Origin: Methanoregulaceae archaeon
GTDB lineage: Archaea; Halobacteriota; Methanomicrobia; Methanomicrobiales; Methanospirillaceae
Reading direction: 5' to 3'
Assembly: GCA_019695435.1 (NCBI GenBank)
Contig: JACTVF010000016.1
Coordinates: forward strand, 1-16,218
Length of the DNA: 16,218 bases
Numbering within the stretch: the first letter of the stretch is position 1; each line of letters starts with the position of its first letter. The notes below the pieces were generated by a model, which searched no databases, was not told the origin of the DNA, and was given only the letters and a program-made list of their open reading frames with translations. Made by a program: the position numbers and the translations under genes. Positions 1 through 16,218 of the stretch are shown in pieces.

Positions 1-115
1 GCCCGGAGGCAGAACCGCATGACCTACCCAGGCGGGAAAGAAGCCGAAGGCACCGCGCAAACCATCATCAACCAGCAGCCGCCGCACGACACGTACATCG
101 AACCTTTTGCCGGCC
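1..115. repeat. Terminal direct repeat, left copy (circle junction)
   Basis: Bases 1-115 are identical to 16104-16218; I aligned them base by base. The repeat runs from just upstream of the methyltransferase ribosome binding site into its 33rd codon. Because it sits inside a gene and simply re-reads it, the simplest explanation is a circular molecule of 16,103 bp with an assembler overlap at the ends. A true terminal redundancy of a linear phage genome would look the same at this level. Confidence 0.95.
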
Positions 116-786
116 ACGCGGCCATAGCCAGGCTGAAGCGGCCCGCCACCAACACCATCCTCATCGACCGCGACCCCACCGTCACCAACTACCTCGCCAG
201 TCACGTCCCCGGCCAATGGCACCTGCTGATCGAAGACGCGCTCGAATGGTTGCCGCGCCAGCGATTCAGCGCGCGCACCCTGATCTACTGCGACCCACCG
301 TACCTGATGCGCAGCCGCGCCACGCAAAAACCGCGCTACGCATTCGAAATGACCGACGAGGACCATGAGCGCCTTTTGGCGATCCTCACCAGCTTGCCGT
401 GCATGGTCCAAATTTCGGCTTACGCCGACCCGCTGTACAGCTCGCATCTGCGCAACTGGAGGCACATCACCTTCCAAAGCGCCACTCGCCACGGCCTCGC
501 AACCGAGCACCTGTGGATGAGCTACCCCGAACCGAAGGCCCTGCACACGTACCAGCATCTCGGAGCCAACTACAGGGAACGCGAGCGCATCAAACGCAAG
601 GTCACCCGCTGGACCACGCGACTCGCCACGCTGCCCGCGCTCGAAAGGCTCGCGCTGTTCAGCGCCATCGAGGAAAGCATCAACGCGCCGGCCCCAGAGG
701 CGGCGATGCTGGCCAGCGATCGCCCGCACCGCCAGAACCGGCGAAACCCGGAACACACCCTGCAAAAACCGAACGGGGAGGCATAA
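19..786 (+). CDS. Phage-type DNA adenine methyltransferase (D12/Dam-like class)
   Basis: This protein should transfer a methyl group from S-adenosylmethionine to N6 of adenine in DNA. The start ATG at 19 follows GGAGG at 5-9. The protein (255 aa) opens with the family hallmark YPGGK (residues 3-7), then the SAM-binding motif I region EPFAGHAA (28-35), an acidic ILIDRD strand (47-52) and the catalytic DPPY at 92-95. Length is normal for phage D12 enzymes. One oddity is that motif I, usually FxGxG, reads FAGHA here, with Ala in place of the last Gly. The Arg/Pro-rich tail after about residue 225 looks disordered. No cognate restriction endonuclease is visible, so protection from host restriction or regulation is more likely than a restriction-modification pair. 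On the circle the frame stays open upstream to an ATG at 15831. I prefer the ATG at 19 because family members begin right at YPGGK. Confidence 0.93.
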   Translation: MTYPGGKEAEGTAQTIINQQPPHDTYIEPFAGHAAIARLKRPATNTILIDRDPTVTNYLASHVPGQWHLLIEDALEWLPRQRFSARTLIYCDPPYLMRSRATQKPRYAFEMTDEDHERLLAILTSLPCMVQISAYADPLYSSHLRNWRHITFQSATRHGLATEHLWMSYPEPKALHTYQHLGANYRERERIKRKVTRWTTRLATLPALERLALFSAIEESINAPAPEAAMLASDRPHRQNRRNPEHTLQKPNGEA

Positions 787-871
787 AAAGAGACACGTCG
801 TCCTCTGGGGAACCCCGGGCCTCTCAGCCCGCGTGTGAGAGAGATTCACACCTCGGAGTAGCGGCCGACCC

Positions 872-952
872 TGTGGAAAACTCGCAAAAGGCCCCAAAAT
901 CCCCTATTGCAACCACTTAGGCCAGCAGAGCGGTGTGGAAACCCAATCCACA
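872..952. promoter_or_regulatory. Cluster of DnaA-box-like sites
   Basis: TGTGGAAAA at 872-880 matches the reverse DnaA box TGTGGATAA at 8 of 9 positions. TGTGGAAAC at 934-942 matches at 7 of 9. CAATCCACA at 944-952 matches TTATCCACA at 7 of 9. The last two face each other as TGTGGA-7 bp-TCCACA. A further 7-of-9 site, TTATCCCAG, lies at 1095-1103. The spacing and clustering suggest host DnaA binding at an origin, although short boxes of this kind can occur by chance. Confidence 0.45.
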
Positions 953-1202
953 GGTGACCCCTGCTTACATGTTCGCCCTCTTCGAGGTCACGGCCAGGTA
1001 CCCCATCGAAACCAGCCGATCCTTAGACACACGGGGGGTAGCGACGGCCAAGCCTCGGCTTTTCCCGCCCTACTCTACGACGCTGTGCGTGGTCTTATCC
1101 CAGAAGGCTGCATTCGCGTGGCGACGAACTACGGACATTGGGGCTGGGCTACCACGTCCCCGAGAACGCCATTCTTCAGACTCGGGTGCCCGGTAAAAAA
1201 TC

Positions 1203-1268
1203 GCGCGCCCGGAGCAGGAACATCGGACCCCATGAGGACCGTCACCAAGCGGTGACTGACGGGCGCGC
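1203..1268. repeat. Nested inverted repeat
   Basis: The outer arms are GCGCGCCC (1203-1210) and GGGCGCGC (1261-1268), a perfect 8-bp match. Inside lies a perfect 6-bp hairpin, GTCACC-AAGC-GGTGAC (1241-1256). No gene overlaps it convincingly. It could be a structured RNA, an attenuator or part of an origin. Confidence 0.6.
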
Positions 1269-1414
1269 CCATCCCAAAATCGTGGTACGGTAGAGGCACT
1301 GCACCACAACAGGGGCAACCATACCCCGGCCAGCCCCTCCCCGCCAGTGGAAAACTCCACCCCCTCAGCTACCCCTTTGACGACACGCAAAAAAACGCCC
1401 AAATCGTTAACCCG

Positions 1415-1444: not shown

Positions 1445-1643
1445 TTCTTATCAGTCGCGGTTCCCCCCTCGTAATCCCCCCGAAAAGTCAACACTAATGC
1501 GCTCAAAGCTAAAGATCAGTTCCACATCGTCAAGCGAAATGTTCACTGCATCAACACGTTATTTACTCAACTCCCTCGTTTTGCACACGCTATCCCCTCA
1601 ATACACCGTTACGATGGCTTTCACGGTACCAAAAGGAGTTTTA

Positions 1644-1886
1644 ATGCCAGCCCGCGACTACAACGTGGAGCCGGTCAGAACCACCGGCGACCCACGGACC
1701 ACCACCTGCGACTGCGGCACGTCGCTCATCCTCCCCAAGCACCCCACCACCCACTGCCCCAAATGCCACGCGTCGTACACGAGCCGGAGCTTGCAGCGTC
1801 CGGCTTATTGCGCGCACTGCAACTTCAACCTCAGAAAGTGGCGCCAGCGAAACAACATCCCCGACCTCAACGTGCCCTTTCTCTAA
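1644..1886 (+). CDS. Small zinc-ribbon protein, unknown function
   Basis: This 80-residue protein has six cysteines arranged as CDC (22-24), CPKC (38-41) and CAHC (56-59), the pattern of one or two zinc-ribbon or knuckle sites. A basic segment follows (RKWRQR, 64-69). Small zinc ribbons of this kind are common in phages as DNA- or RNA-binding regulators, but I cannot assign a family. I chose the ATG at 1644 because GGAG (1635-1638) precedes it by 5 bases. The frame is open further up, to 1497, but that stretch is AT-rich, has no good ribosome binding site and is compositionally unlike the rest. It is the first gene after the non-coding region, so an early or regulatory role is plausible. The endolysin follows after 38 bp. 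Confidence 0.75.
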   Translation: MPARDYNVEPVRTTGDPRTTTCDCGTSLILPKHPTTHCPKCHASYTSRSLQRPAYCAHCNFNLRKWRQRNNIPDLNVPFL

Positions 1887-1924
1887 CCGCGCGTCCACCC
1901 CGCGCAGATCGGAGCCACCGCACC

Positions 1925-2425
1925 ATGACCCGACTCAGCATCGCCCCGCCCATCGCTGCGTTTCTCGATCTCGTCGCGCTGAGCGAAGGCACCAGCAAAG
2001 CACCCAACACCCATGACGACGGGTACGACATCATCGTCTGCGGCATCGACGGACGCCACAATTTTTCCGACTACAGCGCGCATCCGTTCGCAGCCGGCCG
2101 CAAACCGATCATCGTGCGCACCGCGCCAACACTGCTCGAAAGCACCGCGAGCGGTCGCTACCAAATCATCTTGCCGACGTGGAAGAACCTCGCCGCGGCG
2201 CGCGGGCTCGGCACATTCAGTCCGCAAAATCAAGACATGGCCTGCCTCGCTCTGCTCGAACAAAGCAGCACCGTCGCGCTCATCTCCGCTGGAAAAATCG
2301 AGCAAGCGATCGAGGCGGAATGCGAGACGTGGGCCAGCTTCCCCGGCAACAACTTCGGCCAGGGCGGTCGCACGCTCGACTGGCTGCTGCAGCAGTACGC
2401 GGCGCTGCTCAACCCTCTGCCGTGA
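1925..2425 (+). CDS. Endolysin of the phage lambda R type (lytic transglycosylase, GH104-like)
   Basis: This enzyme should cleave peptidoglycan glycan strands in the periplasm to release progeny. The 166-residue protein can be followed along phage lambda R: AFLDLVALSEGT (12-23) with the likely catalytic Glu21, HDDGYDIIV (30-38), FSDYSAHP (47-54), STASGRYQ (73-80), FSPQNQDMA (98-106) and WASFPG (136-141). Length is close to that of lambda R, with an extra stretch of roughly ten residues around 55-68. There is no signal peptide, so a holin or similar exit route is expected; the candidates here are the membrane proteins at 6574-7017 and 15061-15279. The ATG at 1925 follows GGAG at 1911-1914. Lambda R-type enzymes point to a Gram-negative-type envelope in the host. 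Confidence 0.93.
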   Translation: MTRLSIAPPIAAFLDLVALSEGTSKAPNTHDDGYDIIVCGIDGRHNFSDYSAHPFAAGRKPIIVRTAPTLLESTASGRYQIILPTWKNLAAARGLGTFSPQNQDMACLALLEQSSTVALISAGKIEQAIEAECETWASFPGNNFGQGGRTLDWLLQQYAALLNPLP

Positions 2426-2440
2426 GAAGGAAACACACCC

Positions 2441-2671
2441 ATGCTTGAAGCCATCCAACTGGTAAAGACACTCGCACCCAACGCGCGACTCGACTGCTGC
2501 CCATACGAAGGCGGCGAGGACGGCACCGGCTTTTTTATTCGCGTGGGGATCGGCGGACACTGGCTCTCGAAAGTGCGAAAACATCCGCGCGCCGCCTGGG
2601 CGAACGCCGCGCAACGGCTACTCGCAAGATCTCCGGAGCAGCAAACGCTAACCGGCAACACAGACCGATGA
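2441..2671 (+). CDS. Small unknown protein next to the endolysin
   Basis: This 76-residue protein is not recognised. It begins 15 bp after the endolysin stop and has a GAAGG ribosome binding site at 2426-2430, so it is probably translated from the same message. The sequence mixes hydrophobic and charged residues (LDCCPYEGG near 17-25, then GFFIRVGIGGHW at 30-41), with no membrane segment or signal peptide. A small globular fold with a beta hairpin around residues 30-45 is plausible. The position would suit an accessory lysis or regulatory protein, but nothing in the sequence proves it. Confidence 0.7.
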   Translation: MLEAIQLVKTLAPNARLDCCPYEGGEDGTGFFIRVGIGGHWLSKVRKHPRAAWANAAQRLLARSPEQQTLTGNTDR

Positions 2672-2812: not shown

Positions 2813-3019
2813 ATGCCCGCATCACAGCCCAGGCACTTCAACACACCGCCGCCGCTCTCCGACGAAGAGATCGTGCGCGGCACACTCTTGCGCTGCACCG
2901 AAGGGCTGGAACGCCAGCTTGCAGAGCTCAGCACCGCCAACAAAAACCGCGCGCTCCTCGCGCTGCACGCGCAGATCGGCGAGCAGCTGGAAGCACTCGC
3001 CGCCGACAATCACATCTGA
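2813..3019 (+). CDS. Small helical protein, unknown function
   Basis: This 68-residue protein starts at an ATG preceded by GAGGAA (2799-2804). After a short proline-containing N-terminus it is almost wholly charged and helical (LSDEEIVRGTLLRCTEGLERQ and on), with leucines spaced to form an amphipathic helix or short coiled coil. It has no membrane segment or signal peptide. I do not recognise the family. A longer open frame in another register starts at 2668 and covers this gene, but it is Arg/Pro/Ser-rich with no further support, so I treat it as spurious. Confidence 0.65.
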   Translation: MPASQPRHFNTPPPLSDEEIVRGTLLRCTEGLERQLAELSTANKNRALLALHAQIGEQLEALAADNHI

Positions 3020-3089: not shown

Positions 3090-3452
3090 ATGGCATCGAG
3101 CTTCTGGAAAAAATTCAACAGCGTACTCGCCAAAGTGCTGCTCGTCGGCACCGAAGGCGCAGCCCTCGCCGAGCCCGTCATCGACGTTACCGCGCCCGGA
3201 ATCAGCGGCGTCTACAACATCGCCGCGAACGCAGCACTACAGGCAGAACAGGCAGGCGAGGCCGCGGCCTCCGGACCCGTGTCGGACGAAGCCAAGACCG
3301 CAGCCGTGGCCGCTGCCGTCGCGCCCGTCCTCGCATCGGCGACACAACAAGCTGGCCTCACGCCCCACACCCAAGACCAGGTGAACGCCTACGCATCCAC
3401 CGTCGTCGCGGGACTCGCGGCGCTGAACACAGCACCACCCGCCGCATCGTAA
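3090..3452 (+). CDS. Ala-rich small phage-type protein, possibly membrane-associated
   Basis: This 120-residue protein follows a GAGAGAGG ribosome binding site (3073-3080). The N-terminus (MASSFWKKFNSVLAKVLL) is an amphipathic, basic-hydrophobic helix, followed by a mildly hydrophobic Ala/Gly/Val stretch (about 23-55) and an Ala-rich helical part (about 60-115). Short proteins that begin with an xFWKK helix and continue Ala/Val-rich are familiar beside lysis or tail genes of phages, and are usually annotated as hypothetical. Holin-like or membrane-peripheral behaviour is possible, but I see no clear transmembrane segment. A strong hairpin (3462-3501) follows directly. Confidence 0.75.
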   Translation: MASSFWKKFNSVLAKVLLVGTEGAALAEPVIDVTAPGISGVYNIAANAALQAEQAGEAAASGPVSDEAKTAAVAAAVAPVLASATQQAGLTPHTQDQVNAYASTVVAGLAALNTAPPAAS

Positions 3453-3549: not shown

Positions 3550-3930
3550 ATGGCCAGAACCATCACAGGCGCGCAGATGCAGCGCCTCACTCTCACACTC
3601 GGCGTCCTCTCCGACCTGGCGCTCAGTGAAACGCGGCCCGCCGCGAAAGCCGCGCTGCTCTACTGCACCAGGGAACTTCTCCAGATCGTCGCGCCACCAA
3701 AAGCGCCGCCGGCCGCGAGCGGTTCCACCGCACCGGGCACTTCGACGGTGACGGCCGACAAAACCACGTCGCCCAAGCCAGCTCGCACCGCCGAACAACG
3801 CAGCGCCAGCGCGTCGAAGGCGAACAAGACACGCGCCGCGAACAAGGCGAAGCCGTCGACCACCACCGGAACCACGGCGGCGAGCGATCAGCAGCACCCG
3901 GTGAACGATCCCAACGCACCCACCGGCTAA
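3550..3930 (+). CDS. Unknown protein: short helical head, long disordered Ala/Thr/Lys tail
   Basis: This 126-residue protein has the best ribosome binding site of the early region, AAGGAGG at 3536-3542, 7 bases before the ATG. Residues 1-48 form a helical hairpin-like domain (LTLTLGVLSDLALSETR... then ALLYCTRELLQIV). From about residue 49 to the end it is low-complexity Pro/Ala/Thr/Lys/Ser, basic overall and probably disordered. Such a tail could bind nucleic acid or act as a tether. I do not recognise the family. Confidence 0.7.
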   Translation: MARTITGAQMQRLTLTLGVLSDLALSETRPAAKAALLYCTRELLQIVAPPKAPPAASGSTAPGTSTVTADKTTSPKPARTAEQRSASASKANKTRAANKAKPSTTTGTTAASDQQHPVNDPNAPTG

Positions 3931-4113: not shown

Positions 4114-4800
4114 ATGATTAAACTCACACCCGAGGAATTCCACACCACGCGCGAAGCCGTCGCCGCCGCGCATCTGTTCTTGCAATCCGTCGCGCCGCTA
4201 CTCCAGCAGCGCCACACGATGCTCAACCGCGAGCAGCGCAACCTACTGACCTACTGCAAAGAGCAACTGCCCGCAGCGTTCAGCGCCATCGCCACCGTGA
4301 CACACCGCGAGAACCGCGACCCCGACGCGCCGCCCCCACCGGCCAGCGAACGCCTCACCGACATCGACCGCCTACTCTTCCGCGACGAGCTCGAAAACGT
4401 CAGCGCCCTTGTGCTGCCTGACCTCGTTTACGAAATGGTGTGCGCGCTCGGAGAACTGCCGATGTTTCACGAGACGCTGACAGCAGAGCCCATGACCACG
4501 CACCGCACCGCAACGCTGATGGCGTGGTGTTGGGAAGGCGGCAGGCGCTACGGCTTGCAGCAGGCCCTCGCGATCTTCGACAACACCAACACCGACTTCA
4601 AGGCCGGCACGGACGCTGCGATGCTTGCGGCCCTCAATGCCACGCTCGATTTACCCGTCTCCGAAAAGATCGGCCCAGGCGGCGCCACCGCGCAGGAACA
4701 GAACCGGCCAGGCCCCACCCTCGTCACCGGCGATGCGCGATCGACAGACCCCGAACCATTCAAGTACGAGGAAGCCGAGCCCACACCCAAACCCAACTGA
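4114..4800 (+). CDS. Unknown 228-residue mostly helical protein
   Basis: The start ATG at 4114 follows AAAGGAG (4098-4104). The frame is open upstream to 3991, but the ribosome binding site favours 4114. The protein is predominantly helical for residues 1-175 (for example TPEEFHTTREAVAAAHLFLQ and LLTYCKEQLPAAF), with a proline-rich break at about 70-75. The last 40 residues are Pro/Gly-rich and probably disordered. There is no signal peptide, membrane segment or enzyme motif that I can see. It is the largest protein of the early block, so it is the first candidate for an unrecognised replication or scaffold function, but that is speculation. The next gene starts 8 bp downstream. Confidence 0.75.
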   Translation: MIKLTPEEFHTTREAVAAAHLFLQSVAPLLQQRHTMLNREQRNLLTYCKEQLPAAFSAIATVTHRENRDPDAPPPPASERLTDIDRLLFRDELENVSALVLPDLVYEMVCALGELPMFHETLTAEPMTTHRTATLMAWCWEGGRRYGLQQALAIFDNTNTDFKAGTDAAMLAALNATLDLPVSEKIGPGGATAQEQNRPGPTLVTGDARSTDPEPFKYEEAEPTPKPN

Positions 4801-4808
4801 GGCGCGCC

Positions 4809-5147
4809 ATGAGCACACCGCAAAACGCAAACCTCGACTTCAACAACATGGCCAGCAAAGCAACGCTGGCCTGTTCTCTCTGGCGCGCGTGGGCGCTGGC
4901 ACAACCGAAGGACTGCGCCCAGGCCCGCCGCGCTTTCGAAGTCGCGGCGCTCTTCGAGAAGCAAGCCGACCTCTTCGCAGCCATGCACCGCAACCGCATC
5001 GCGTGGCAACCAGCGGCCACCGGCCTCACACTGCCACCCGCGCAACCGGCGAGGCAACCGGCTACACCGCCGAACCCGGCGAGAGTGAAAGACGTCACGA
5101 AGCCATGGGGCGGCAACATCGCGCGCCCGAAGGACGCCACCAAGTGA
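4809..5147 (+). CDS. Unknown 112-residue protein, helical N-half with Pro-rich tail
   Basis: It begins 8 bp after the preceding stop with only a weak AGGCG site, so translation is probably coupled to the upstream gene. Residues 12-65 are helical and contain aromatic and cysteine residues (LACSLWRAWALAQPKDC). The C-terminal 45 residues are rich in Pro, Ala and Thr. There is no membrane segment or known motif. Its stop codon overlaps the GTG start of the next gene, which supports a co-translated pair. Confidence 0.7.
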   Translation: MSTPQNANLDFNNMASKATLACSLWRAWALAQPKDCAQARRAFEVAALFEKQADLFAAMHRNRIAWQPAATGLTLPPAQPARQPATPPNPARVKDVTKPWGGNIARPKDATK

Positions 5148-5353
5148 CCGTGCGCATGCACCTGACGGAAGCGGAGCGCGATCTCATCGTCGAGATGTGC
5201 ATTGCAGCGACGCTCATCGAGCGCGGCGAGCAGGAAGCCGCGCTCGAAACCTATCTCCAGTTCACGCTCGACAACTGGGAGCAGGTCCGGTCCATCATCT
5301 TCAAGCTCGACCAGCCAGGTCCCGACGACTGGCCCCCGCAAGTCGAGAGCTAG
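5144..5353 (+). CDS. Unknown 69-residue acidic helical protein, GTG start
   Basis: The GTG at 5144 overlaps the TGA of the previous gene (GTGA) and is preceded by AAGGA at 5130-5134 with 9-base spacing. An ATG at 5156 is an alternative that would shorten the protein by four residues. The protein is acidic and helical (LTEAERDLIVEMCIAATLIE) and ends with a short Pro/Asp stretch. It has no membrane segment or recognised domain. It is the last gene before the 1.2-kb repeat region, and an 8-base T-tract at 5369-5376 follows without a strong stem in front of it. Confidence 0.65.
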   Translation: MTVRMHLTEAERDLIVEMCIAATLIERGEQEAALETYLQFTLDNWEQVRSIIFKLDQPGPDDWPPQVES

Positions 5354-5491
5354 GCGCGGCTCACCCGGTTTTTTTTCCTTAACAAGCAAACTCAAAAGAA
5401 TAGACGCGGCACAGAGGCGGCAAAAACGTGTCCGAGCGGATGCAGTTGGAAGGCACCGCCAACGCAGGCGATGCGTCCAGGACGCAAAATG

Positions 5492-5535
5492 CCCCGCCGA
5501 TGCGCAGGACATCCCCCGCCGATGCGCAGGGCCAG
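5492..5535. repeat. 22-bp tandem repeat, two copies
   Basis: Copies at 5492-5513 and 5514-5535 share their first 17 bases exactly (CCCCGCCGATGCGCAGG) and then diverge. The period is not a multiple of three, which argues against a coding repeat. Confidence 0.8.
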
Positions 5536-5593
5536 CAGAAGCATCAAGGAGCGCCAGCGAAAGCATGGACGCGCGCGGACAGCGCCGCCGCAA

Positions 5594-5725
5594 ACCGGCG
5601 CTCGTAGTCACGGCGCTCCGGAAACGCGCCGCTCCTCGCGCCTGCACCCACGCGACATCACCGGCGCTCGTAGACGCCGCGCGGGAAAAGCGCGCGGCTG
5701 CTCGCGCCTACAGCCGCGCCCGACT
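5594..5725. repeat. 66-bp tandem repeat with a conserved hairpin
   Basis: Copies at 5594-5659 and 5660-5725 both start with ACCGGCGCTCGTAG and share CTCGCGCCT further on. Between these constant parts each copy has a hairpin with different bases: CGGCGC/GCGCCG (5611-5616 with 5626-5631) in the first, GCCGCGCG/CGCGCGGC (5676-5683 with 5691-5698) in the second. The pairing is kept while the sequence changes, which suggests that structure matters. Confidence 0.7.
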
Positions 5726-5727
5726 CG

Positions 5728-5822
5728 CGGGGCTGCAGCCCCTGCCGCCCCGCCTCAGCGCGGGGCTGCCGCCCCTGCCGCCCCGCCTCAGCGCGGGGCT
5801 GCCGCCCCTGCCGCCCCGCCTC
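5728..5822. repeat. 33-bp tandem repeat, about 2.9 copies
   Basis: Units start at 5728, 5761 and 5794; the last is truncated at 5822. The second and third are identical over the shared length, and the first differs at one base, where GGGGCTGCAGCCCC (5729-5742) is a perfect palindrome. The 33-bp period equals 11 codons, but no frame has a plausible start, and all readings are low-complexity Pro/Ala/Arg peptides. Confidence 0.9.
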
Positions 5823-5889
5823 GCAACGCAACAGCATCACGCGACACCGGAGACACCACAGCGGATCAGCAGCAAGCCATGGACATCAG

Positions 5890-5923
5890 CGCGCCTAACG
5901 GCGCTAAAGCGCCGTCAGGCGCG
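5890..5923. repeat. Long hairpin with TAAA-type loop
   Basis: CGCGCCT (5890-5896) pairs with AGGCGCG (5917-5923). After one A-C mismatch, ACGGCGCT (5898-5905) pairs with AGCGCCGT (5908-5915), leaving the loop as CTAAAG. That is fifteen paired positions in 34 bases. Confidence 0.85.
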
Positions 5924-6102
5924 GCCAGCAGCATCGTGGTGCCTTCGTCGCTGGATGCCGCGCCAGCGCGCGGCACCCCGTGGGGGGGGGCTCGCTCCTT
6001 AGTCCGTCGCGGCTCCCGATCGTCATCGGCGCTGCCAGCTTTCCGGTGCGTCGCCGCGCCGGCCTAGCCCGCTCCCCCCCCCTCCACCCCCCCGCCTCGC
6101 TT

Positions 6103-6119
6103 CGCCAGCTTCGCTGGCG
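6103..6119. repeat. Short perfect hairpin with TTC loop
   Basis: CGCCAGC (6103-6109) and GCTGGCG (6113-6119) form a 7-bp stem closed by TTC. It lies just after the C9/C7 runs of the repeat island. Confidence 0.75.
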
Positions 6120-6260
6120 CGCCTGCGGGCGGCGCTCGGCTCAGCGGGCCGGGGGGCCGTGCTCGCTTCGCTGCGCTGGCCCCGCGGAACCGCCGCGCCA
6201 TCAGCATCGCCGCTGCCATCTCTCGCGTGCGGCCGTTCCGCTCTTCGCCTCAGCAGACCA

Positions 6261-6282
6261 CGGGTGCGCTAAAGCGCACCCG
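6261..6282. repeat. Perfect 10-bp hairpin with TAAA-type loop
   Basis: CGGGTGCGCT (6261-6270), AA, AGCGCACCCG (6273-6282). It is the same CTAAAG-centred design as the hairpin at 5890-5923 but with a different stem sequence. Confidence 0.85.
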
Positions 6283-6286
6283 CCGA

Positions 6287-6310
6287 CGCGCGCGGTTAAA
6301 ACCGCGCACG
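6287..6310. repeat. Hairpin with TTAAAA centre
   Basis: GCGCGGTT (6290-6297), AA, AACCGCGC (6300-6307), with two more pairs beyond one mismatch. It starts 4 bp after the previous hairpin, so the two could form a double stem-loop. Confidence 0.8.
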
Positions 6311-6443
6311 TCCTCATACGCAGCAGTGCGCCCCGTGCGGCTCTCTCCATTTTGTCGCACACCCGTCAACCCTCTCCGCGCGCCGTCCGCACCACCGCCA
6401 CCGACCTGGAAGGCGCGCTCCGACCGCTCACGCGGCTCGCCCA

Positions 6444-6506
6444 TGAAAATCGAAAACGCCACGCGCAAAAACGCGGCTAAAGCCGCCGCGCGTGGCTCGA
6501 TTTTCA
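6444..6506. repeat. 63-nt three-part hairpin with one-sided A-rich bulges
   Basis: TGAAAATCGA (6444-6453) pairs with TCGATTTTCA (6497-6506). GCCACGCGC (6458-6466) pairs with GCGCGTGGC (6488-6496). GCGGCT (6473-6478) pairs with AGCCGC (6481-6486) around a TAAA-type loop. That is 25 base pairs. The bulges AAAC and AAAAAC lie on the left arm, against none and a single C on the right. It ends 67 bp upstream of the next gene and could be a structured leader, a terminator-like barrier or a recognition site. Confidence 0.85.
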
Positions 6507-6517
6507 CCGGCTCGGGG

Positions 6518-6546
6518 TTGACAGGCGTGCGCGTCAAGATCATGAG
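6518..6546 (+). promoter_or_regulatory. Candidate promoter of the membrane-protein gene
   Basis: A perfect -35 TTGACA lies at 6518-6523. The -10 region at the usual distance (around 6540-6546) is poor, so the call rests mostly on the -35 box and on its position 50 bp upstream of the gene. Confidence 0.35.
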
Positions 6547-6573
6547 CCGCACGTCGGCTGAGGAGGGTACACC

Positions 6574-7042: not shown

Positions 7043-7056
7043 CCGCACCACAACAC

Positions 7057-9482: not shown

Positions 9483-12206
9483 ATGAAAAAAACACTCGAG
9501 CTCGCATTGCTATTCCTGCTGATGGCCGCAGCGATCCGCGCGCAGGTACCCGGCAACCAGGTGAATTGGAACCAAACCACGCCCGCCCCGCCCACCGGCA
9601 CCTACAACGCCCAGCCGCAGGGCGACTCCACCCGGCCCATCGTGAACGCCAGCATGGTCGTTACCTACCCCACGCGCGTCGCCGCGTGCAGCCTCGGCGG
9701 CGACCTCGGCACCGCCATCCTGAATGTGGAAGTGTCTCTCCCCGCAGACCAGGGCGGCATCGTCGACGCCCGCGCCTGCACGCAAAATTCATCGTGGGCC
9801 AGCCCCATCCCCGTCGAACCCGCAGGCGTTACCATCCTGCTGCCTTGCGTGACGGTCAACATGAGCGGCTATCTCTACGTGCCAGCGGGCACCAACAACG
9901 TGCGCATCCTCGGATGCACCAACTCAGGCGCGACCGGCGTGAGCGGGCCAGGAGGCGGCACCGTGTTCGAGTACACCGGCACCGGCGCACCCATCCGCGT
10001 CGGCGACTCCACCTACCTCTCCAACACCAACGCCGTCGAAATCGGCGACCTGTCCATCTACAACGCCAGCGCAGGCAGCACCGCCAAAGCCATTGAAATT
10101 TGGGACACCCAGGACCTCTCCCTGCACGATCTCGTCATCAACGGCAGCAGCAGCCTCTCGCAAATCGGGCTATACCTCGATGGCAGCGGCAACTACACAG
10201 GCGGTGAGTTCCGCAACATCAAAATCGAAGGCGAGGGCCAAGCCATCTGGATGAGCGGCAACTTCTACGACTCGGAAACCAACGCCACCGCCAACGCCAG
10301 CACGTTCACACGCCTGCACATCGTGTGCCCGACCAGCGCGGGATCTCCCATCAGCGGAACTTACGGTATCGACCTGCTCGGCGGCGACGGCAACGTCTTC
10401 GTGGGCGGCGACGTGGAAGCGTGCGACACTCTCCTCTATCTCGGCGCATCCGCCAGGGACAACAGCTTTTTCAGCGTGCGCAACGAAAACACCAACACGC
10501 AAATCAGCGCGGCCAGCGGCAGCCAGTACAACCTATGGGAGCAAAGCGGCACTCTGGGAACGGGAAAAGTCATCGACGCCGGCACGCACAACAGCTTCAT
10601 CGACACGTTTCACCGCTCATCCAACAACCTGAATGGCGACCTGTGGCGATCGCAGGCCGACACCACCGTCACCAACCACGTCTACACCGGCATCGGGCTG
10701 GGCAACGTGCGCGGCAGGCAAGACGAATGGCAAACCGACGTGCCAGGAACCCCCGGCAGCTATCAGTTCATGTGGACGTGGGGACCAGGAGACGGAACCA
10801 CCGGCGGGCAGACGTGGCTCCTCAATGACGATCTCAACAGCGTGCAGCGCCTCGGCTTCGACGAGCACACCACCGCGGGCGGCAACAACCAGACGCGCAT
10901 CAACTCATCCGGCTCAGGCGGCGTATTCGTCAACACCAGCGCCAACAGCGGAACCGGAGGCTTCACCATCGGCAGCGGCGGCGGGAGCCCCACCACCATC
11001 GCCCACTACGACAGCAGCGGCAACAGCTACCAGCTCGGAAACCAAAGCTTTTACGCCAGCGCCACCGAGGCATGGTACTTCGAGTGCGCCAGCACCGGCG
11101 CGTGCAACATCGAAAGCATGTATCCGAACGCCAGCGAAAAACACATCGCGCTCTACAACGGAGGCGGCACCGACTTCGAGAGCGAAGCCAGCGCGGGAGT
11201 CAGCGTCAACAACAGCAGCAGCGGAAGCACCGGCCATTTCACGGTGTACGGCGGAGGCGCGAGCTACTACAACACCAAGCTGTTTCAGGTCCAGAACAAC
11301 GGCAACGGCACCGCCAACTATCTCTTTCCGTCGCTCTCAGCTACGAGCGCCCCCGCCTGCATCGACGTGGACACGTCCGGCTACTTCCACGTGCTCACCT
11401 ACGACTGCGGGAGCAGCACCGGCACCGGCACCGTCAACAGCGCGAGCGCATACGCAGCACCCTACTATCCGGCCACCGGCAACACCGTGAGCGGCGCCAC
11501 GCCGTTCACCGGCCTCGAATACTGGCCAGGAAGCGGCGCGCCGGCCGCAGCGACCGCCGCCCAGGTCGTCGCAGTCATCGCCAGCACGCCCGTCGCAGAT
11601 GCAACCTATGCGACCACAGCAGGCGGCGCGCCACCCACCGGCAGCACAGGCGGCGACCTCTCCGGCAGCTACCCAAGCCCCACCGTCGCAAAGATCGAGG
11701 GCGGCACCATCCCCATCAACACGAACCACGCGGGGTACAACAGCAGCGGCCAGCCCGTCGCCTCACCCAACACGCTCGGATGCATCGACGGATACGACCA
11801 CCTGCCCTGCGTTGTCTATCAGCAGCCCAACCAGAGCATCTCTGCCAGCCAGGGGAGCTACACAACCGTGTGGCCAGCAAGCGGAAACGCACCAGCGGGA
11901 ATCTATCGCGTCACCGGCTACACCTACGGCACCCAGGCAGGAACTTGCAGCGCGGGCTCCGCCACCGCTGAAACGTTCGTCAAGGCCACACAGAGCGGCG
12001 GCACCACCAACGGCTGGGCCGTCGCCAGCGCGCAACTCGCGAGCAGCATCAGCAGCGGCAGCGTCACCGCGTCGCCAGTCTTCAACGTCGCCGCGTCGAG
12101 CACCGCATTCAGCGTCGAAAGCACACTGAGCGCCTGCTCATCCTCCGGCACCTTCTCCGGCACCGCAATTTGGAGCTTCGCCATCACCATCGAGCGCCTA
12201 CAGTAA
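9483..12206 (+). CDS. Secreted beta-helix fibre-like protein
   Basis: This 907-residue protein opens with a textbook Sec signal peptide: KK, then LELALLFLLMAAAI, with likely cleavage after Ala20 (AIRA|QVP). Residues of about 110-300 show short repeating strands rich in Asn, Gly and Ile (NVRILGC, VEIGDLSIYN, LSLHDLVING, FRNIKIEG), as in right-handed parallel beta helices of tailspikes and pectate lyases. The middle is Gly/Ser/Asn-rich. GGDLSGSYPSPTVAKIEGG at 723-741 is a motif familiar from phage tail fibres and large surface proteins. The last 120 residues look like a beta-sandwich tip with cysteines. A signal peptide is unusual for a tailed-phage fibre and points to assembly or display outside the cytoplasm, or to a host-derived secreted protein. 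The ATG at 9483 follows AAAGGA, 13 bp after the previous stop. Confidence 0.82.
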   Translation: MKKTLELALLFLLMAAAIRAQVPGNQVNWNQTTPAPPTGTYNAQPQGDSTRPIVNASMVVTYPTRVAACSLGGDLGTAILNVEVSLPADQGGIVDARACTQNSSWASPIPVEPAGVTILLPCVTVNMSGYLYVPAGTNNVRILGCTNSGATGVSGPGGGTVFEYTGTGAPIRVGDSTYLSNTNAVEIGDLSIYNASAGSTAKAIEIWDTQDLSLHDLVINGSSSLSQIGLYLDGSGNYTGGEFRNIKIEGEGQAIWMSGNFYDSETNATANASTFTRLHIVCPTSAGSPISGTYGIDLLGGDGNVFVGGDVEACDTLLYLGASARDNSFFSVRNENTNTQISAASGSQYNLWEQSGTLGTGKVIDAGTHNSFIDTFHRSSNNLNGDLWRSQADTTVTNHVYTGIGLGNVRGRQDEWQTDVPGTPGSYQFMWTWGPGDGTTGGQTWLLNDDLNSVQRLGFDEHTTAGGNNQTRINSSGSGGVFVNTSANSGTGGFTIGSGGGSPTTIAHYDSSGNSYQLGNQSFYASATEAWYFECASTGACNIESMYPNASEKHIALYNGGGTDFESEASAGVSVNNSSSGSTGHFTVYGGGASYYNTKLFQVQNNGNGTANYLFPSLSATSAPACIDVDTSGYFHVLTYDCGSSTGTGTVNSASAYAAPYYPATGNTVSGATPFTGLEYWPGSGAPAAATAAQVVAVIASTPVADATYATTAGGAPPTGSTGGDLSGSYPSPTVAKIEGGTIPINTNHAGYNSSGQPVASPNTLGCIDGYDHLPCVVYQQPNQSISASQGSYTTVWPASGNAPAGIYRVTGYTYGTQAGTCSAGSATAETFVKATQSGGTTNGWAVASAQLASSISSGSVTASPVFNVAASSTAFSVESTLSACSSSGTFSGTAIWSFAITIERLQ

Positions 12207-12215: not shown

Positions 12216-15014
12216 ATGCTCATCCGCCCCAACTCCGCGCTGCCACCCAAACGCAGCACCACCGGCATCGTGCGCGGCCGAAGCAACGCTGGCTATTGGG
12301 TGCGCGCCCGCGCATCCGTCATCAACGCGAACACACCAGCCATGACGCGATGGCGCAACCTCTTCGGCGCGGGAAAGATGAACTACAAGGCCGCACTCGC
12401 AGGCACCACACCGCCGCCCCCAGGTTTCTCCATCTCCGCACTCGACGCGTGGACCATCTTCGCGGAAACCTACTTCGGCATCCTCTCCGCTGGCCCCTAT
12501 TACGGCGGACTGCAATTCCCCACTTCGCTTACCGGGTGCAGCACCGTGGAGGCCTTCGTCGTGATGGTTTCAACCACCCTCGCGCAGTTGAACCTGCCCG
12601 TGCCCACCGCTCCCAACGTCGCGGAGGAATACCTCGCCTTCCCGGCCAGCCCCTACGACGGAACGCTAGGCAACTTCGCCGTGGACATCGAAGGGGCAAG
12701 CGCCCCCACACCGGGCGTCCCCGGCCTCATCCTGAAAGCCACGCTCACCACCACCACGCAAACCACCCCACCCACGGCCCTCTCCGGAACGGCCGCCACC
12801 TGCACAGTCAACGTGTCCGCGCTCACCACCACGCAAACCCCCGGCCCCGTGTTCACCAGCCTGCCGTGCAGCGTGAACGCCAACGGCAGTCATTGGAATT
12901 ACGATTTCGGGCTGGGCGTCAACTTCGGCAACCTCGTCGGCGATCTCCTCACGGTCACCGGCTTCTCACACAGCGCGTTCAACGTGACCAACGCCGCCAT
13001 CGTGGCGAACACACTGACCACCCTCAGCATTGCAAACACGAGCGTGCCCGCCACGCTCGACATCGATGGCAGCGGCTCAGTGAGCGACACCGACACGTAC
13101 CAATACACCGCGACCATCACCGTACTGCCGTCCCCATCCACAGCGGCCGGAAGCATCACGCTGAGCTTTCAATTCACCGACAACGCGGGAACGCACTCCA
13201 CCGACCTCACACTGAGCGCCACCGCGGGGTCGATCCTCCCCGCCATCCCGTCGCCCTTCTTTCAAACACCATCGTACCTGTCCGCGCACGCCATCTACGA
13301 TGACGCGCTCAACATCGCGGGCATCTATCTCACCTACAGCGTCACCGACACCGGCGCGGGCGTCATGCAGCGCGGCGGCGCACCCCTGCCAAACCAATGG
13401 ATCGTCACCGCCAGCGCGGCATACACGAACAGCTACGCCGCACCCGACCCTTCGACCTGGAAACCGCTCACGTACAACGGGCAAGTCAGCACCAACAGCG
13501 CAGCCTACGGAGGCCCGCCACCCTCCACCCCGGATCAGATTCTCGACGCATGGGAAGCCGTCTACGGTCCCATCCCCGACTCTGGCAAGATCAAATTTCA
13601 GGTAAAACCCGTGGACCCGACTTCCGGCTGCCCTGGCCCCGCGCTCTCGTGCACGCTGGAGTGGCAAAACGGTACGCTGCTAGGCGCGATCATCGGCGCG
13701 GAGGGATTCGAAACGCCGCAAGGCGGCCCCGCGTGGTGGGGAGCAGCCTTCTTCATGGCTTCGGTGGGCTCACCCTACACAGTCACACCCGGCACACCGC
13801 TCACATTCACAGCGGGCATCTCCGGCGACCGGGGATACAACGGCACGGTGACATTCACCGCGAAGAGCAAAAGCCCAGTGCCCAACGGGAACAACAGCAA
13901 AACCCACGCGCTGCCCCCCGGCGTCACCGTCACCTTCACGCCGCCCACCATCGACATCGTTGCCGACCTCCCCACCGGCTATTCAACCACCGTCGAAATC
14001 GACGCGGACCCGGCCACCGCTGCCCTATGGAGCGGCAACATCGACATCGAAGCCTCAGACGGCGTGCAAACCGCCACAGCTCGCACCACCATCAATGTCG
14101 CCGGCTCGGTCATTCTGCCGCCCAGCAACTTCCTCACCATTTCGCCGGCAAACTCCACCATGAGCGCAGCAGCCGGAACGGCGACGACGGCACTGCTCAC
14201 GCTCGAAAACACCGGCCCGGATGACATCAACCTGGACATGCTCTCCGGAAGCACCAACCCAAACCTCTCCGCTGAATTCGGCACCGGCGCCACCGCGAGC
14301 GCAACCGCGACGTCTACCACCATCACTTTCGCGCTGGCCACGGGAGCGGCAGACAACAGCCTCATCGGCCAAACCCTCAGCAGCGCAGGCTACAGTCCCG
14401 ATGGCTACAACGTCACGGACGCCACCATCGTCGCCAACGACGCCAGCACAATCACAGTAGCGAGCGCCAACGCACCCGGCACCATGACCACGGCGGGCGT
14501 CGCGGCCATCATCAACAACGCGCTCACCGTCCCCGCAGGCACCGTCATGAGCCCCGGCACCGTCGAGACGTACATCTTCGTGACGCCACTCCCCGGCAAC
14601 GAAATCGACCTCGCCTTCATCCAGATCGAAGCCAGCGCGGGCGTCAACATCGCTTACGCAGCGATCAGCGTGACGACACAGGCCAGCGGCCCCGTGCAAA
14701 TGACGCCGTTCACCGCCCCACCCATCACCACTCGGCTCACGCCGTGGGTGATCGACTTCACCGTGACGAACACCGACCCCGGCGATGTGACGCTGGCAAT
14801 CTCGACACTCAACCCCTCGCCCATCTTCGCGCTCACGTTCAGCGAAACCACGGTGTACCTGCCCGGTGGCTCCATCGCAAGCCCAGGAAGCGCCAGCTTC
14901 AGCGTCACTGCGACCATCGAACTCGGTCCCGGCACCTTCAACAGCGCCATCCTCATCGCCGCCAGCACCCCCAGCATCAACCTGCTCGGCACGATCCCGG
15001 TCAACGTCACATAA
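12216..15014 (+). CDS. Large beta-rich surface/virion-type protein, third member of the N-terminal-module family
   Basis: This 932-residue protein starts with the same module as the proteins at 7639 and 8651. Against the first, without gaps, it shares Gly17, Ile18, Val19, Gly26, Arg30, Ala33, TPA at 40-42, Thr44, Arg47 and Asn48, and a conserved Trp follows near residue 78. The rest is Thr/Ala/Pro-rich and beta-structured, probably several Ig-like domains in a row. Two internal repeats resemble each other, at about 241-288 and 713-760 (NVTxAxIVAN core). The segment TISPANSTMSAAAGTATTALLTLENTG (about 645 on) resembles bacterial Ig-like or choice-of-anchor domains. There is no signal peptide, unlike its upstream neighbour 9 bp away. 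No Shine-Dalgarno is visible, so translation may be coupled. It is a candidate fibre, decoration or adhesion protein. Confidence 0.78.
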   Translation: MLIRPNSALPPKRSTTGIVRGRSNAGYWVRARASVINANTPAMTRWRNLFGAGKMNYKAALAGTTPPPPGFSISALDAWTIFAETYFGILSAGPYYGGLQFPTSLTGCSTVEAFVVMVSTTLAQLNLPVPTAPNVAEEYLAFPASPYDGTLGNFAVDIEGASAPTPGVPGLILKATLTTTTQTTPPTALSGTAATCTVNVSALTTTQTPGPVFTSLPCSVNANGSHWNYDFGLGVNFGNLVGDLLTVTGFSHSAFNVTNAAIVANTLTTLSIANTSVPATLDIDGSGSVSDTDTYQYTATITVLPSPSTAAGSITLSFQFTDNAGTHSTDLTLSATAGSILPAIPSPFFQTPSYLSAHAIYDDALNIAGIYLTYSVTDTGAGVMQRGGAPLPNQWIVTASAAYTNSYAAPDPSTWKPLTYNGQVSTNSAAYGGPPPSTPDQILDAWEAVYGPIPDSGKIKFQVKPVDPTSGCPGPALSCTLEWQNGTLLGAIIGAEGFETPQGGPAWWGAAFFMASVGSPYTVTPGTPLTFTAGISGDRGYNGTVTFTAKSKSPVPNGNNSKTHALPPGVTVTFTPPTIDIVADLPTGYSTTVEIDADPATAALWSGNIDIEASDGVQTATARTTINVAGSVILPPSNFLTISPANSTMSAAAGTATTALLTLENTGPDDINLDMLSGSTNPNLSAEFGTGATASATATSTTITFALATGAADNSLIGQTLSSAGYSPDGYNVTDATIVANDASTITVASANAPGTMTTAGVAAIINNALTVPAGTVMSPGTVETYIFVTPLPGNEIDLAFIQIEASAGVNIAYAAISVTTQASGPVQMTPFTAPPITTRLTPWVIDFTVTNTDPGDVTLAISTLNPSPIFALTFSETTVYLPGGSIASPGSASFSVTATIELGPGTFNSAILIAASTPSINLLGTIPVNVT

Positions 15015-15060
15015 CCGCTGAAACCTACCAAAAAGCGCATACTCTGATGCAAGGGCGCCC

Positions 15061-15279
15061 ATGGAAAACTCCGCCGCCATCGAAATCGCCATCACCGCGG
15101 CTACCCAAATCGGCGTGTTCTTGGTCCTATGGGGCGGCATGCGCAGCGACCTGAAAAACATCGTGGGTCGGCTACGCGAAACCGCCGCCACAGCCAAAGC
15201 CGCCGACCTCGCCGCTGCGGAACTCAAAGGGCGAGTGGACACGTTACCCTGCGGCGCTTGCAGGCTCGGTGGCGACTAA
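15061..15279 (+). CDS. Small holin-like membrane protein
   Basis: This 72-residue protein has an AAGGGCG site (15050-15056) before its ATG. Residues of about 5-28 form one membrane segment (AIEIAITAATQIGVFLVLWGGM). A charged, Ala-rich amphipathic helix follows (SDLKNIVGRLRETAATAKAADLAAAELKGR), probably cytoplasmic. The C-terminus holds CGAC. One membrane span plus a coiled-coil-like tail is the layout of small phage holins and XhlA-like haemolysin-type proteins, so it may let the endolysin (1925-2425) reach the wall. The position at the end of the structural operon fits a lysis role. The PLD gene starts 2 bp after the stop. Confidence 0.72.
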   Translation: MENSAAIEIAITAATQIGVFLVLWGGMRSDLKNIVGRLRETAATAKAADLAAAELKGRVDTLPCGACRLGGD

Positions 15280-15281
15280 CC

Positions 15282-15806
15282 GTGATCGCGCAGCACTACA
15301 CCAACCCCTCGGATGTCAGCCCCGTTGACATCGCAACGATTTCGGCCGCCACCGCCACCATCGACTATGCGGCCTACACGCTCACGCACGCCGCCATCAT
15401 CCAGGCACTCATCGAGCGCGCCAAGGCAGGCGTACAAATCCGCCTCTACCTCGACCGCACGGAGCTCGAAGCCGAAGCCAGGGGCAACCCCACCCTCAGC
15501 AACAGCCCTCTCGGCCCGCTCCTCGCCACCCCCAACGTGCAAACCAAGGTGAAACACTCGAGCATTTTGATGCACCTGAAAAGCTATCTCGTCGATGGCA
15601 AGGTGCTCAGAGACGGCAGCGCCAACTTTTCCCCGCTGGGTGAAGACGAACAGGACAATTCGATGCTCGTTACCGACGACCCGCCCACCGTCGCGCTCTT
15701 CGCCGCCAAATTCACCGCCATGTGGAACCGCGCCGACAATCTCACCGTCGCCCAGGCCATAGCCACGGGCTCCAATCCCGGCCACGCCGCCCACCACTCG
15801 CACTGA
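15282..15806 (+). CDS. Phospholipase D superfamily nuclease-like protein, single HKD motif
   Basis: This protein belongs to the PLD superfamily, whose single-motif members (such as the Nuc endonuclease) act as dimers and cleave phosphodiester bonds in DNA or lipid. The 174-residue protein has the conserved N-terminal strand-helix (ATIDYAAYTLT, then LIERAKAGVQIRLYLD at 43-58), the catalytic HLKSYLVD (His98, Lys100, Asp105), and GSANFS at 112-117 followed by an acidic EDEQDN (121-126). I chose the GTG at 15282, 2 bp after the previous stop, because the conserved domain begins soon after it and GGTGG precedes it. The frame is open upstream to 15129, but that part overlaps the holin-like gene and is Arg/His-rich. 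Substrate is unknown; DNA degradation or processing is more likely than lipid cleavage. Without a signal peptide it should act in the cytoplasm. Confidence 0.88.
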   Translation: MIAQHYTNPSDVSPVDIATISAATATIDYAAYTLTHAAIIQALIERAKAGVQIRLYLDRTELEAEARGNPTLSNSPLGPLLATPNVQTKVKHSSILMHLKSYLVDGKVLRDGSANFSPLGEDEQDNSMLVTDDPPTVALFAAKFTAMWNRADNLTVAQAIATGSNPGHAAHHSH

Positions 15807-16103
15807 CCTGCAGCAACGCCGAAAAGGACGATGGATTCCCCCACCGCCCTCGCAGCGACGCGCCTACGGTCAAATAAACGCGATCTTTCCACGCGGATCT
15901 CCAACCCAGGGCCCCAGCGGCCCCAAAGCCGGATCCCACCACCGCCGCCGACGATAAGCGATCGATGTCGACCACCACCGCCGACAACGATGGGCCCGGA
16001 CGAATCACCGAAACCGGCGAGGCCAGGGCGCACCACCAAAGGCAGCGAGGCGCACCGGCGCACACCCGCACCCCCGGCGATGGCGAGGCGTGCTACCATT
16101 GCA
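15807..16103. other. Leader of the methyltransferase gene, or an N-terminal extension of it
   Basis: No separate gene is supported. A reading frame opens at the ATG at 15831, preceded by AAAAGGA (15822-15828), and stays open for 97 codons to the methyltransferase start (16122, equal to 19). The encoded stretch is Pro/Arg-rich and has a 36-bp near-repeat (CCACCACCGCCG at 15936-15947 and 15972-15983). Either the methyltransferase has a long disordered extension or this is a leader in which the frame happens to be open. I see no clear promoter or terminator. Confidence 0.5.
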
Positions 16104-16218
16104 GCCCGGAGGCAGAACCGCATGACCTACCCAGGCGGGAAAGAAGCCGAAGGCACCGCGCAAACCATCATCAACCAGCAGCCGCCGCACGACACGTACA
16201 TCGAACCTTTTGCCGGCC
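16104..16218. repeat. Terminal direct repeat, right copy; 5' part of the methyltransferase gene
   Basis: Identical to bases 1-115. It includes the GGAGG ribosome binding site (16108-16112) and the first 32 codons of the methyltransferase from 16122. It marks the point where the sequence closes on itself. Confidence 0.95.

Follow-up and report, generated by a model that had tools for sequence, protein, structure and literature searches.

A closed 16.1-kb DNA circle as a possible member of an undescribed family of bacterial virus-like elements

What kind of element is a small DNA circle that encodes lysis, surface and methylase genes, and in which no gene for replication, packaging or a capsid is recognised? 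The initial annotation raised this question for the window, the whole stretch of 16,218 nucleotides analysed here, whose genes and proteins are named below by their first position. Our best explanation, to which we give a probability of about one half, is that the window shows, in full, the 16.1-kb circular genome of a bacterial virus-like element from a family not yet described. At the same odds, and judging from sequence comparison, the family would be defined by the paralogues 7639 and 8651 together with 12216 as a third paralogue, partial and enlarged. The place of the circle looks to be on the large, Rep-less branch of a class that has a hallmark protein in common, usually in two adjacent copies; this group of elements appears to be widespread and is apparently undescribed.

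Circle closure and gene content

The proposed closure of the circle was borne out, as positions 1..115 and 16104..16218 form an exact direct repeat of 115 bp, the longest end repeat present; without the second copy the circle measures 16,103 bp. It carries about 17 genes, all on the + strand. The endolysin, methyltransferase and PLD nuclease that had been read from the sequence were all recognised in family searches. The methylase, a Dam/D12-type DNA adenine methylase of 255 aa (19..786; PF02086 4.9e-8, PHROG 56 5.3e-24), has GGAGG upstream, and this frame replaced a longer ORF from 15831. Its top-ranked phage match was Salmonella phage SEN5 (43%), and PADLOC placed it near type II methyltransferases (3.8e-24). 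The endolysin (1925..2425, 166 aa) is of the lambda-R type (PHROG 90, 1.2e-35) and matched lambda lysozyme 1am7 (4.5e-21) and 3d3d (about 4e-21) in the PDB; it had relatives in 552 phage records, the top-ranked at 44%, and by reading no signal peptide was seen. The single-HKD PLD-family nuclease (15282..15806, about 174 aa; PF13091 2.1e-19) likely starts with the GTG at 15282, and its searches were run with the frame from 15276 (CTA). It was 62% identical to its counterpart in the related element L009 and 50% to a phage gene in L018/L019, two near-identical IMG/VR contigs which read like a Mu-like tailed phage and were the sole outcome of the PLD search, and it also resembled the defence nuclease DrmC (PADLOC, 9.6e-8). 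Going by these resemblances, a defence or counter-defence role is possible for the methylase and the PLD protein.

The remaining small genes were less informative. A zinc-ribbon-like protein (1641..1886, start uncertain, 1497 or 1641) has one CxC and two CxxC, read directly, and weak matches in Pfam and NCBIfam. No family was found in Pfam or PHROGs for the proteins of 76 aa (2441..2671), 68 aa (2813..3019) and 65 aa (5156..5353), in Pfam, PHROGs or NCBIfam for that of 126 aa (3550..3930), or in Pfam, PHROGs or the phage records for the 120-aa protein near the endolysin gene (3090..3452). The 112-aa protein (4809..5147) had no Pfam family and a weak PHROG match (E 0.095). A 147-aa protein with one hydrophobic segment (6574..7017) is 49% identical over residues 94-134 in L009 and L010. 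The 72-aa protein (15061..15279), carrying a hydrophobic segment at the N-terminal end and a helical tail, is holin-like by reading and belongs to no family; a similar-looking ORF was read at the same place in L009, with no tblastn match.

That no replication, packaging or capsid gene could be recognised also held, with Pfam and PHROGs (17 window proteins), NCBIfam (10 of the 17) and motif scans. The Caudoviricetes markers (HK97-fold capsid, portal and terminase) were absent from these family searches (n=17 for Pfam and PHROGs, n=10 for NCBIfam), which work at the sequence level, where very divergent versions could escape. In the six-frame stop-to-stop segments of at least 60 aa no P-loop motif was present, hence no Zot-like ATPase, the Inoviridae marker; the four HUH-like motifs in six-frame segments of this size all lay outside the gene reading frames. 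Neither a relaxase nor a partition gene was recognised by Pfam or PHROGs, and searches of the window for tRNAs and for Rfam families (gathering score) were negative. What NCBIfam gave for the proteins was weak and well under the cut-off, for instance 0.0086 for 4114 with a sactipeptide model. The missing Rep and ATPase are odd for an autonomous 16-kb virus.

The unrecognised Rep, ATPase and capsid would be expected of a helper-dependent satellite, which brings its own adhesin, lysis and methylase genes and takes replication, capsid and packaging from a co-infecting virus, possibly a small Rep-bearing circle or a tailed phage. The phage relatives of the endolysin and methylase and the PLD relative in a Mu-like-reading contig agree with such an origin, which we regard as possible, though not probable. 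Known satellites use integrase, terminase or capsid-remodelling genes, however, and none of these was recognised here; nor were helper-hijacking genes of the PICI, P4 or PLE type, a weak test as hijacking genes are diverse. Furthermore, no partner was found in G000, the bin with this contig: window DNA 1-3000 matched the window alone, and 5353-7640 shared 26 bases with one other G000 contig, which by reading appears to carry tail-fibre genes of another phage.

Hallmark proteins and their relatives

The initial annotation had offered a very divergent virus, with core proteins hidden among the unknowns, as one candidate. This idea gained most from our analysis, but the core appears to be the 7639/8651/12216 family and not, as had been suggested, 4114 first. 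The first hallmark protein (7639..8646, 335 aa) was modelled with a low-confidence basic arm, helices and FnIII-like and Ig-like domains (AF2, pLDDT 85.2, pTM 0.62). Its paralogue 8651 (8651..9469, 272 aa) is 38% identical to it and matched the profile of the 7639 family, A1, at 5.3e-61; profiles A2 and A3 represent the families of 4114 and of the L028 protein, respectively. The third (12216..15014, 932 aa) is a partial paralogue (A1 8.2e-10 for the whole protein), with its best stretch at residues 431-485, a weak N-terminal stretch (i-E 0.16) and a relative in L009. Before it lies a 907-aa, probably exported surface protein (9483..12206), a receptor-binding or adhesin candidate, for which we could not find a match in Pfam, PHROG, NCBIfam or the PDB; a signal-peptide-like N-terminus was read in it and in its homologues in L008 and L009.

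The fold matches listed for the 7639 model were generic FnIII, Ig, S-layer and cadherin folds with TM-scores mostly ≤0.3, and no shell fold was among them. Virus-linked structure matches were an N4 capsid chain and many tail and fibre proteins. With A1, four weak matches were obtained in the PDB, the best being Hoc (E 0.057), and two weak families in PHROG, the best a tail protein (E 0.018) matched from 2 of 42 A1 members. These virus-linked matches, Hoc included, would fit decoration or fibre as well as shell.

Homologues in metagenome proteins number hundreds (at least 119, 63 and 528 matches), the at least 119 belonging to 7639, itself included. In that list, 50 of the 119 longest-contig values were at least 10 kb; 35 of these 50 fell at 12-16.3 kb, and 10 exceeded 16.3 kb (up to 35.6 kb), so that some relatives may be of greater size or lie within other DNA. 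The gene order 6574-7639-8651-9483-12216-PLD is kept in L009. Because of the 12-16.3 kb peak among relatives of 7639, and because all 9 gene pairs tested had a lower dN than dS, the suggestion of a deletion or assembly circle is disfavoured. The broader possibility that the window is a fragment or assembly circle from the fibre and lysis region of a larger tailed phage is very unlikely in our view. Its gene types match the late end of a tailed phage, and a few homologues do lie on contigs of 20-36 kb, but many distinct relatives prefer 12-16 kb, two small relatives have closed-circle terminal repeats and a Rep of their own, and relatives of 7639 were absent from 50,697 phage records. IMG/VR likewise gave nothing with the single sequences 4114, 7639 and 12216 or with profiles A1, A2 and A3, in scans that relied on 2-6 short peptide patterns each, so that absence there is not proof.

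Three much smaller elements carry relatives of the hallmark protein. L039 is a closed circle of 4,605 bp with an exact 141-bp end repeat, and L028, of about 6.0 kb, has an end repeat of 209 bp with one mismatch. Over 55 proteins, A1 matched L039_h1 (4.6e-32), L040_h2 (6.2e-31), L040_h1 (5.2e-22) and L028_h (6.9e-22), and hhalign aligned 7639 with the small-circle family (probability 98.9, E 1.6e-17). By profile, 7639, 8651 and partly 12216 are thus homologous to proteins on L039, L028 and L040; L039 (second copy interrupted) and L040 have two paralogues, as the window does. Only 7639 and 8651, of 17 window proteins, had a tblastn match in the small relatives (E ≤0.01). Whereas these relatives are 4.6-6 kb and encode their own HUH/Rep_1-type Rep (PF01446 1.8e-11 in L028; PF23343 1.3e-12 in L039 and 8.2e-9 in L040), the 16.1-kb window has no recognisable Rep: the HUH endonuclease Rep of ssDNA phages and RCR plasmids is absent from its gene frames, and the Reps of L028, L039 and L040 reached a best E of 0.33 against it by tblastn. 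In addition, L039 encodes an SNase-type nuclease, and L040 has ORFs that were read, from the sequence only, as methylase-like (no match in Pfam) and HNH-like (Pfam E 0.069). A3 found nothing in the PDB and 10 weak PHROG families (best 0.014). The 7639-type N-terminal domain thus occurs on small circular elements, the window included, with one chromosomal homologue as the exception.

The existence of small Rep-bearing circles with the same hallmark, and a gene set that serves surface and lysis functions but neither replication nor packaging, would suit one segment of a multipartite virus whose Rep and capsid lie on another circle. We consider this highly improbable; segmented or multipartite dsDNA elements are not known according to the Charybdis authors in their Discussion (PMC12324425).

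The 4114 protein (4114..4800, 228 aa) is all-helical and a candidate initiator or virion protein. It had 63 matches in metagenome proteins, one of them an identical 129-aa piece, and its alignment has 20 invariant columns; on this evidence it is conserved within the large branch. Contig sizes of 4805, 13897, 15197 and 17406 appear in both the 7639 and the 4114 lists, which is consistent with the two genes lying together. Its AF2 model (pLDDT 71.5, pTM 0.30) gave generic helical bundles among the fold matches listed, none of them clear; A2 found nothing in the PDB, five PHROG families, all weak (best 0.0086), and no relative in L028, L029, L039 or L040 (best E 5.8). A GC-rich, hairpin- and repeat-rich region that is apparently non-coding (5354..6573) contains three 33-bp repeats and is a candidate origin or regulatory region; within it, 5593-5720 is 82% identical to L008 46-173, and the identity falls to 71% in the match to L008 that extends furthest (7416-9324, for the most part coding).

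Host and comparison with known systems

The bin G000 contains an archaeal-type 16S rRNA, and for this reason its host label is not trustworthy for the element; the archaeal bin is probably not the host. Among archaeal relatives of the bin (100 genomes each), a 7639 match in G035 (E 2.7e-5, internal stop) and a 4114 match in G048 (E 2.8e-4) were taken as chance. When A1 patterns were run against 84,980 genomes of all phyla, three loci were found in two bins, Opitutae and Planctomycetia. Later genome searches were limited to groups around these bins, so a bias towards them is partly built in; they gave matches in 4/387, 1/288, 3/392, 1/199, 1/75 and 2/236 genomes, several being the previously found centre genome, and a weak match in G205 (E 8e-4) covered residues 278-332 only. 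In a Verrucomicrobiota genome (G1252), an intact hallmark homologue stands by itself on a contig of 650 kb, where no phage genes were seen by reading. The hallmark may therefore act at the cell surface, and this homologue argues against a strictly viral role.

This lone homologue, the Ig/FnIII/S-layer-like folds of the 7639 model and the RCR- and RepL-type replication proteins of the small relatives would be in keeping with a cryptic plasmid on which the hallmark proteins serve as adhesins, of a cell-surface or conjugation-like kind, instead of virion parts. We think this unlikely: a phage-type endolysin and a holin-like gene share the circle, it has no recognised relaxase or partition gene, and neither 7639 nor the L028 protein had a match among 72,556 plasmids.

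Several known groups resemble the window in part. Phage 186, whose P protein (43.5%) is among the top endolysin relatives, and SEN4/SEN5 (43%), among the top methylase relatives, are P2-like tailed phages; in contrast to these, the window has no recognised tail, capsid or packaging genes. For capsid-less viruses of the Pleolipoviridae/Plasmaviridae kind, whose virion is a membrane vesicle bearing a spike and a membrane protein, the exported 907-aa and the hydrophobic 147-aa and 72-aa predicted proteins would fit. Obscuriviridae/Finnlakeviridae (phi18:4, FLiP) are phages whose small circular genomes have a lytic enzyme listed with the virion proteins, as far as the cited part of the source goes (PMC11946311), and 0 of 29 annotated FLiP and phi18:4 proteins matched A1, A2 or A3 at E <0.5.

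By title and abstract start, we failed to find the element class described in the open-licence PMC literature; the nearest concept in print is that of the marine, 4.6-kb Charybdis elements (Kirchberger and Luque, preprint 2025, PMC12324425). In the portion of the preprint drawn on here, they are, like the window, circular and hallmark-less, with a methylase, protrusion- or tail-like proteins and no replication gene, and their many relatives include short contigs binned into unrelated genomes. However, compared by description only, they have two opposed modules, an archaeal host and a double-Greek-key Gp3, and no lysis gene is described in that portion. Charybdis (Gp3) is also reported there from IMG/VR v4, whereas relatives of A1-A3 were not found in the IMG/VR copy searched.

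Proposed life of the element and its meaning

If the window is a virus-like genome, it is most likely maintained as a circle outside the chromosome, with copying in one direction. The surface, and possibly also the shell, of a small particle, either tail-less or membrane-bound, would be built from the hallmark proteins; binding to the next host would fall to the exported 907-aa protein, the methylase would protect the element's DNA, and the endolysin and its holin-like partner would lyse the cell. Replication may be started by an unrecognised initiator, with 4114 as the best candidate, or by a protein of the host or of a co-resident element. A more far-reaching joint reading, which is speculative and rather doubtful as a whole, sees in the 7639-type protein, with its basic arm, its helical domain and a FnIII/Ig-like sandwich, the shell protein of viruses that belong to none of the known realms. 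The genomes of this lineage would range from 4.6-kb rolling-circle circles to circles of at least 16 kb that have lost Rep, have come to carry the shell gene three times and use a new kind of initiator (4114), with PVC bacteria (Verrucomicrobiota, Planctomycetota) as likely hosts and at least one endogenised copy.

The A1/A3 hallmark profile makes searchable a class of which our searches of phage, plasmid and viral collections brought up no relative. Since one protein family is common to the small elements with a Rep and the large ones without, such a class would offer a direct test of how a virus-like element lives without a recognisable initiator of its own, and it would also show what a minimal shell or protrusion looks like.

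Circle closure and gene content

The 115 bases at both ends of the window are identical and represent the longest overlap present, giving a circle of 16,103 bp, and the closed circle described in the initial annotation was thus confirmed. About 17 genes, all on the + strand, occupied 77% of the circle. Across all 31 sliding windows GC skew stayed below zero and AT skew above it, and these signs held both for coding and for non-coding sequence; the uniform skew fits one-way copying but would also be expected under dominant strand-biased coding.

Enzymes could be recognised in three cases only: a Dam/D12 methylase, an endolysin of the lambda-R type and a PLD nuclease (15282..15806), all of which had been named in the initial annotation. 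Neither Pfam and PHROGs (17 window proteins) nor NCBIfam (10 proteins) detected a replication, packaging, capsid or integrase family, no P-loop motif was present in six-frame segments of at least 60 aa, and no HUH motif was present within the window gene frames. The earlier statement that no replication, packaging or capsid gene or integrase could be recognised therefore held, as did its overall observation of a circle without recognisable core genes. In the large-branch relative L009 the methylase match was limited to a C-terminal remnant (8361-8618), so the methylase may be dispensable. The PLD protein showed likeness to phage-borne PLD proteins and to DrmC, a component of DISARM. At L018/L019, in a locus that reads like a Mu-like phage, a PLD protein, apparently with a signal peptide, lies upstream of packaging-/head-like genes.

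By reading, the 907-aa surface protein (9483-12206) and both of its homologues (L008 4651 and L009 3614) begin with a signal-peptide-like segment. Tail fibres of tailed phages do not usually start in this way, and the segments suggest export. The 1.2-kb region 5354-6573 is GC-rich, with dense hairpins and three 33-bp tandem repeats; 128 nt of it shared 82% identity with L008, compared with 71% for the longest match between the window and L008. No Rfam match reached the gathering score in this region. It is the leading candidate for an origin or a control region and possibly contains a structured RNA.

The hallmark protein and its large-branch family

The hallmark family is well supported. The protein encoded at 7639 has a paralogue at 8651 (38% identity; profile E 5.3e-61) and is partly related to that at 12216 (8.2e-10, mostly residues 431-485). 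In its AlphaFold model (pLDDT 85.2, pTM 0.62), an arm predicted with low confidence extends to about residue 33 and is followed by helices at residues 41-102; an FnIII-like sandwich then spans residues 120-231 approximately, and residues 238-335 form an Ig-like domain. The fold matches were generic (FnIII, Ig, cadherin and S-layer), and the lists also included, at low TM-scores, a capsid chain of N4 and numerous phage tail/fibre proteins. Over residues 1-60, the eight hallmark proteins examined had net charges between +5 and +11.

The 7639 protein had at least 119 matches, itself counted, and the 4114 protein had 63, one being a 129-aa piece identical to it. The longest contig was at least 10 kb in 50 of the 119 values for 7639 (35 at 12-16.3 kb, 5 at 10-12 kb and 10 longer). 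For 4114, values of at least 12 kb reached 28 kb, with five at 18-20 kb, indicating that element size varies. The two lists had four lengths in common. Some of their longest contigs (28,476, 31,019 and 35,559) were about twice the usual size and could be head-to-tail dimers. In the cluster containing 7639 itself the longest contig measured 16,228, which implies a second contig; the difference of 125 from 16,103 is compatible with the same circle assembled using a different overlap.

Scanning 84,980 genomes with patterns of A1, the 7639-family profile, yielded three confirmed loci: L008 and L009, both from the same Opitutae bin, and L010 from a Planctomycetia bin, on contigs of 3.3-8.9 kb with 64-66% GC. 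L009 kept the window's gene order 6574-7639-8651-9483-12216-PLD and, by reading, had an ORF resembling 15061. The genes are under constraint: dN was lower than dS in nine of nine pairs tested, the larger dS values being close to saturation (dN/dS 0.20/0.93 for 7639 against L008; 0.018/0.127 for the close pair L009/L010), with far weaker constraint on 12216 (0.64/0.91). The window circle belongs to a family of elements and is not a one-off.

Small Rep-bearing relatives and known systems

A1 matched 4 of 387 genomes in the phylum of the Opitutae bin, and A3, the profile of the L028 protein family, matched 3 of 392 in that of the Planctomycetia bin. Besides the bins of L008-L010, these were G172 (L028), G284 (L029), G1028 (L039), G1015 (L040) and, weakly, G205. 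L028 (6,206 bp; 209-bp terminal repeat with one mismatch) encodes a 231-aa hallmark protein, listed under a Kiritimatiellae bin, and a Rep (PF01446, 1.8e-11). L039 (4,746 bp) has an exact 141-bp repeat giving a 4,605-bp circle. It encodes an SNase-type nuclease (PF00565, 3e-5) and a Rep (PF23343, 1.3e-12), along with a hallmark protein and its paralogue (1398-2363), which is split in two by a stop codon. L040 (5,524 bp, no terminal repeat) has a Rep (PF23343, 8.2e-9) and two adjoining hallmark paralogues. L029 (4,140 bp), in which no terminal repeat was found, encodes a winged-helix protein (HTH_36, 2.5e-6; RepL PF05732, 1.5e-4), and its hallmark relative is more distant, matching in the N-terminal part. 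The alignment of A1 with A3 covered residues 9-177 of 7639 (probability 98.9, E 1.6e-17). When the 17 window proteins were searched against these four small relatives (tblastn, E 0.01), only 7639 and 8651 matched; the 4114 profile (A2) gave no match to them (best E 5.8). The L028 protein had 528 matches, and among the best 120 the longest contig was 4-7 kb in 57 and above 8 kb in only 4. No relatives of this protein were found in phages, plasmids or the IMG/VR scan.

By published description, the present class resembles in outline the Charybdis elements. These are described as 4.6-kb marine circles with methylases and protrusion-like proteins, without hallmark or replication gene, for which concatemers are reported (PMC12324425). 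The present class spans 4.6-16 kb and more, has Rep in small members and an endolysin in the window, and occurs in bins labelled fen and Kiruna. FLiP and phi18:4 proteins did not match the A1-A3 profiles. The circle is best interpreted as representing the large branch within a so far undescribed class of virus-like circular elements. The hallmark family is well supported, and the closure of the circle and the constraint on its genes are demonstrated; the autonomy, host and particle type of the class are putative, and particle formation, export, lysis order and the initiator are inferred parts of the proposed mechanism.

Bin label, chromosomal homologue and host

The 16S rRNA of the window's bin scored 1577 bits with an archaeal model, which was also positive in 9 of 14 control genomes including bacteria; the 5' end of the rRNA reads ATTCTGGTTGATCC, the archaeal form. 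Since the element carries a peptidoglycan endolysin, infection of an archaeal host is unlikely and the binning was treated as an error. No convincing relative of 7639 or 4114 was found in 99 other genomes searched as relatives of the bin. Another contig of the bin (C489, L016) has repeated tail-fibre-like genes and looks like a different phage.

An intact 262-aa hallmark homologue (A1 E 2.7e-34) was found on a 649,894-bp contig of G1252, a genome that shares its class with the Opitutae bin, flanked by moxR-type and DUF58-type genes (named by reading). No phage genes were seen around it in 38 kb, and a partial N-terminal copy lay on a different contig. The stretch from moxR-like to DUF58-like genes (C34, 618,680-628,100; about 9.5 kb) also encodes a protein of 598 aa that looks secreted, together with several paralogues carrying a FYDPPSRRMKAA-like motif. 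The homologue counts against a strictly viral hallmark; it may be an endogenised copy or a sign of a cellular role for the hallmark protein. If it is endogenised, Verrucomicrobiota hosts would be indicated.
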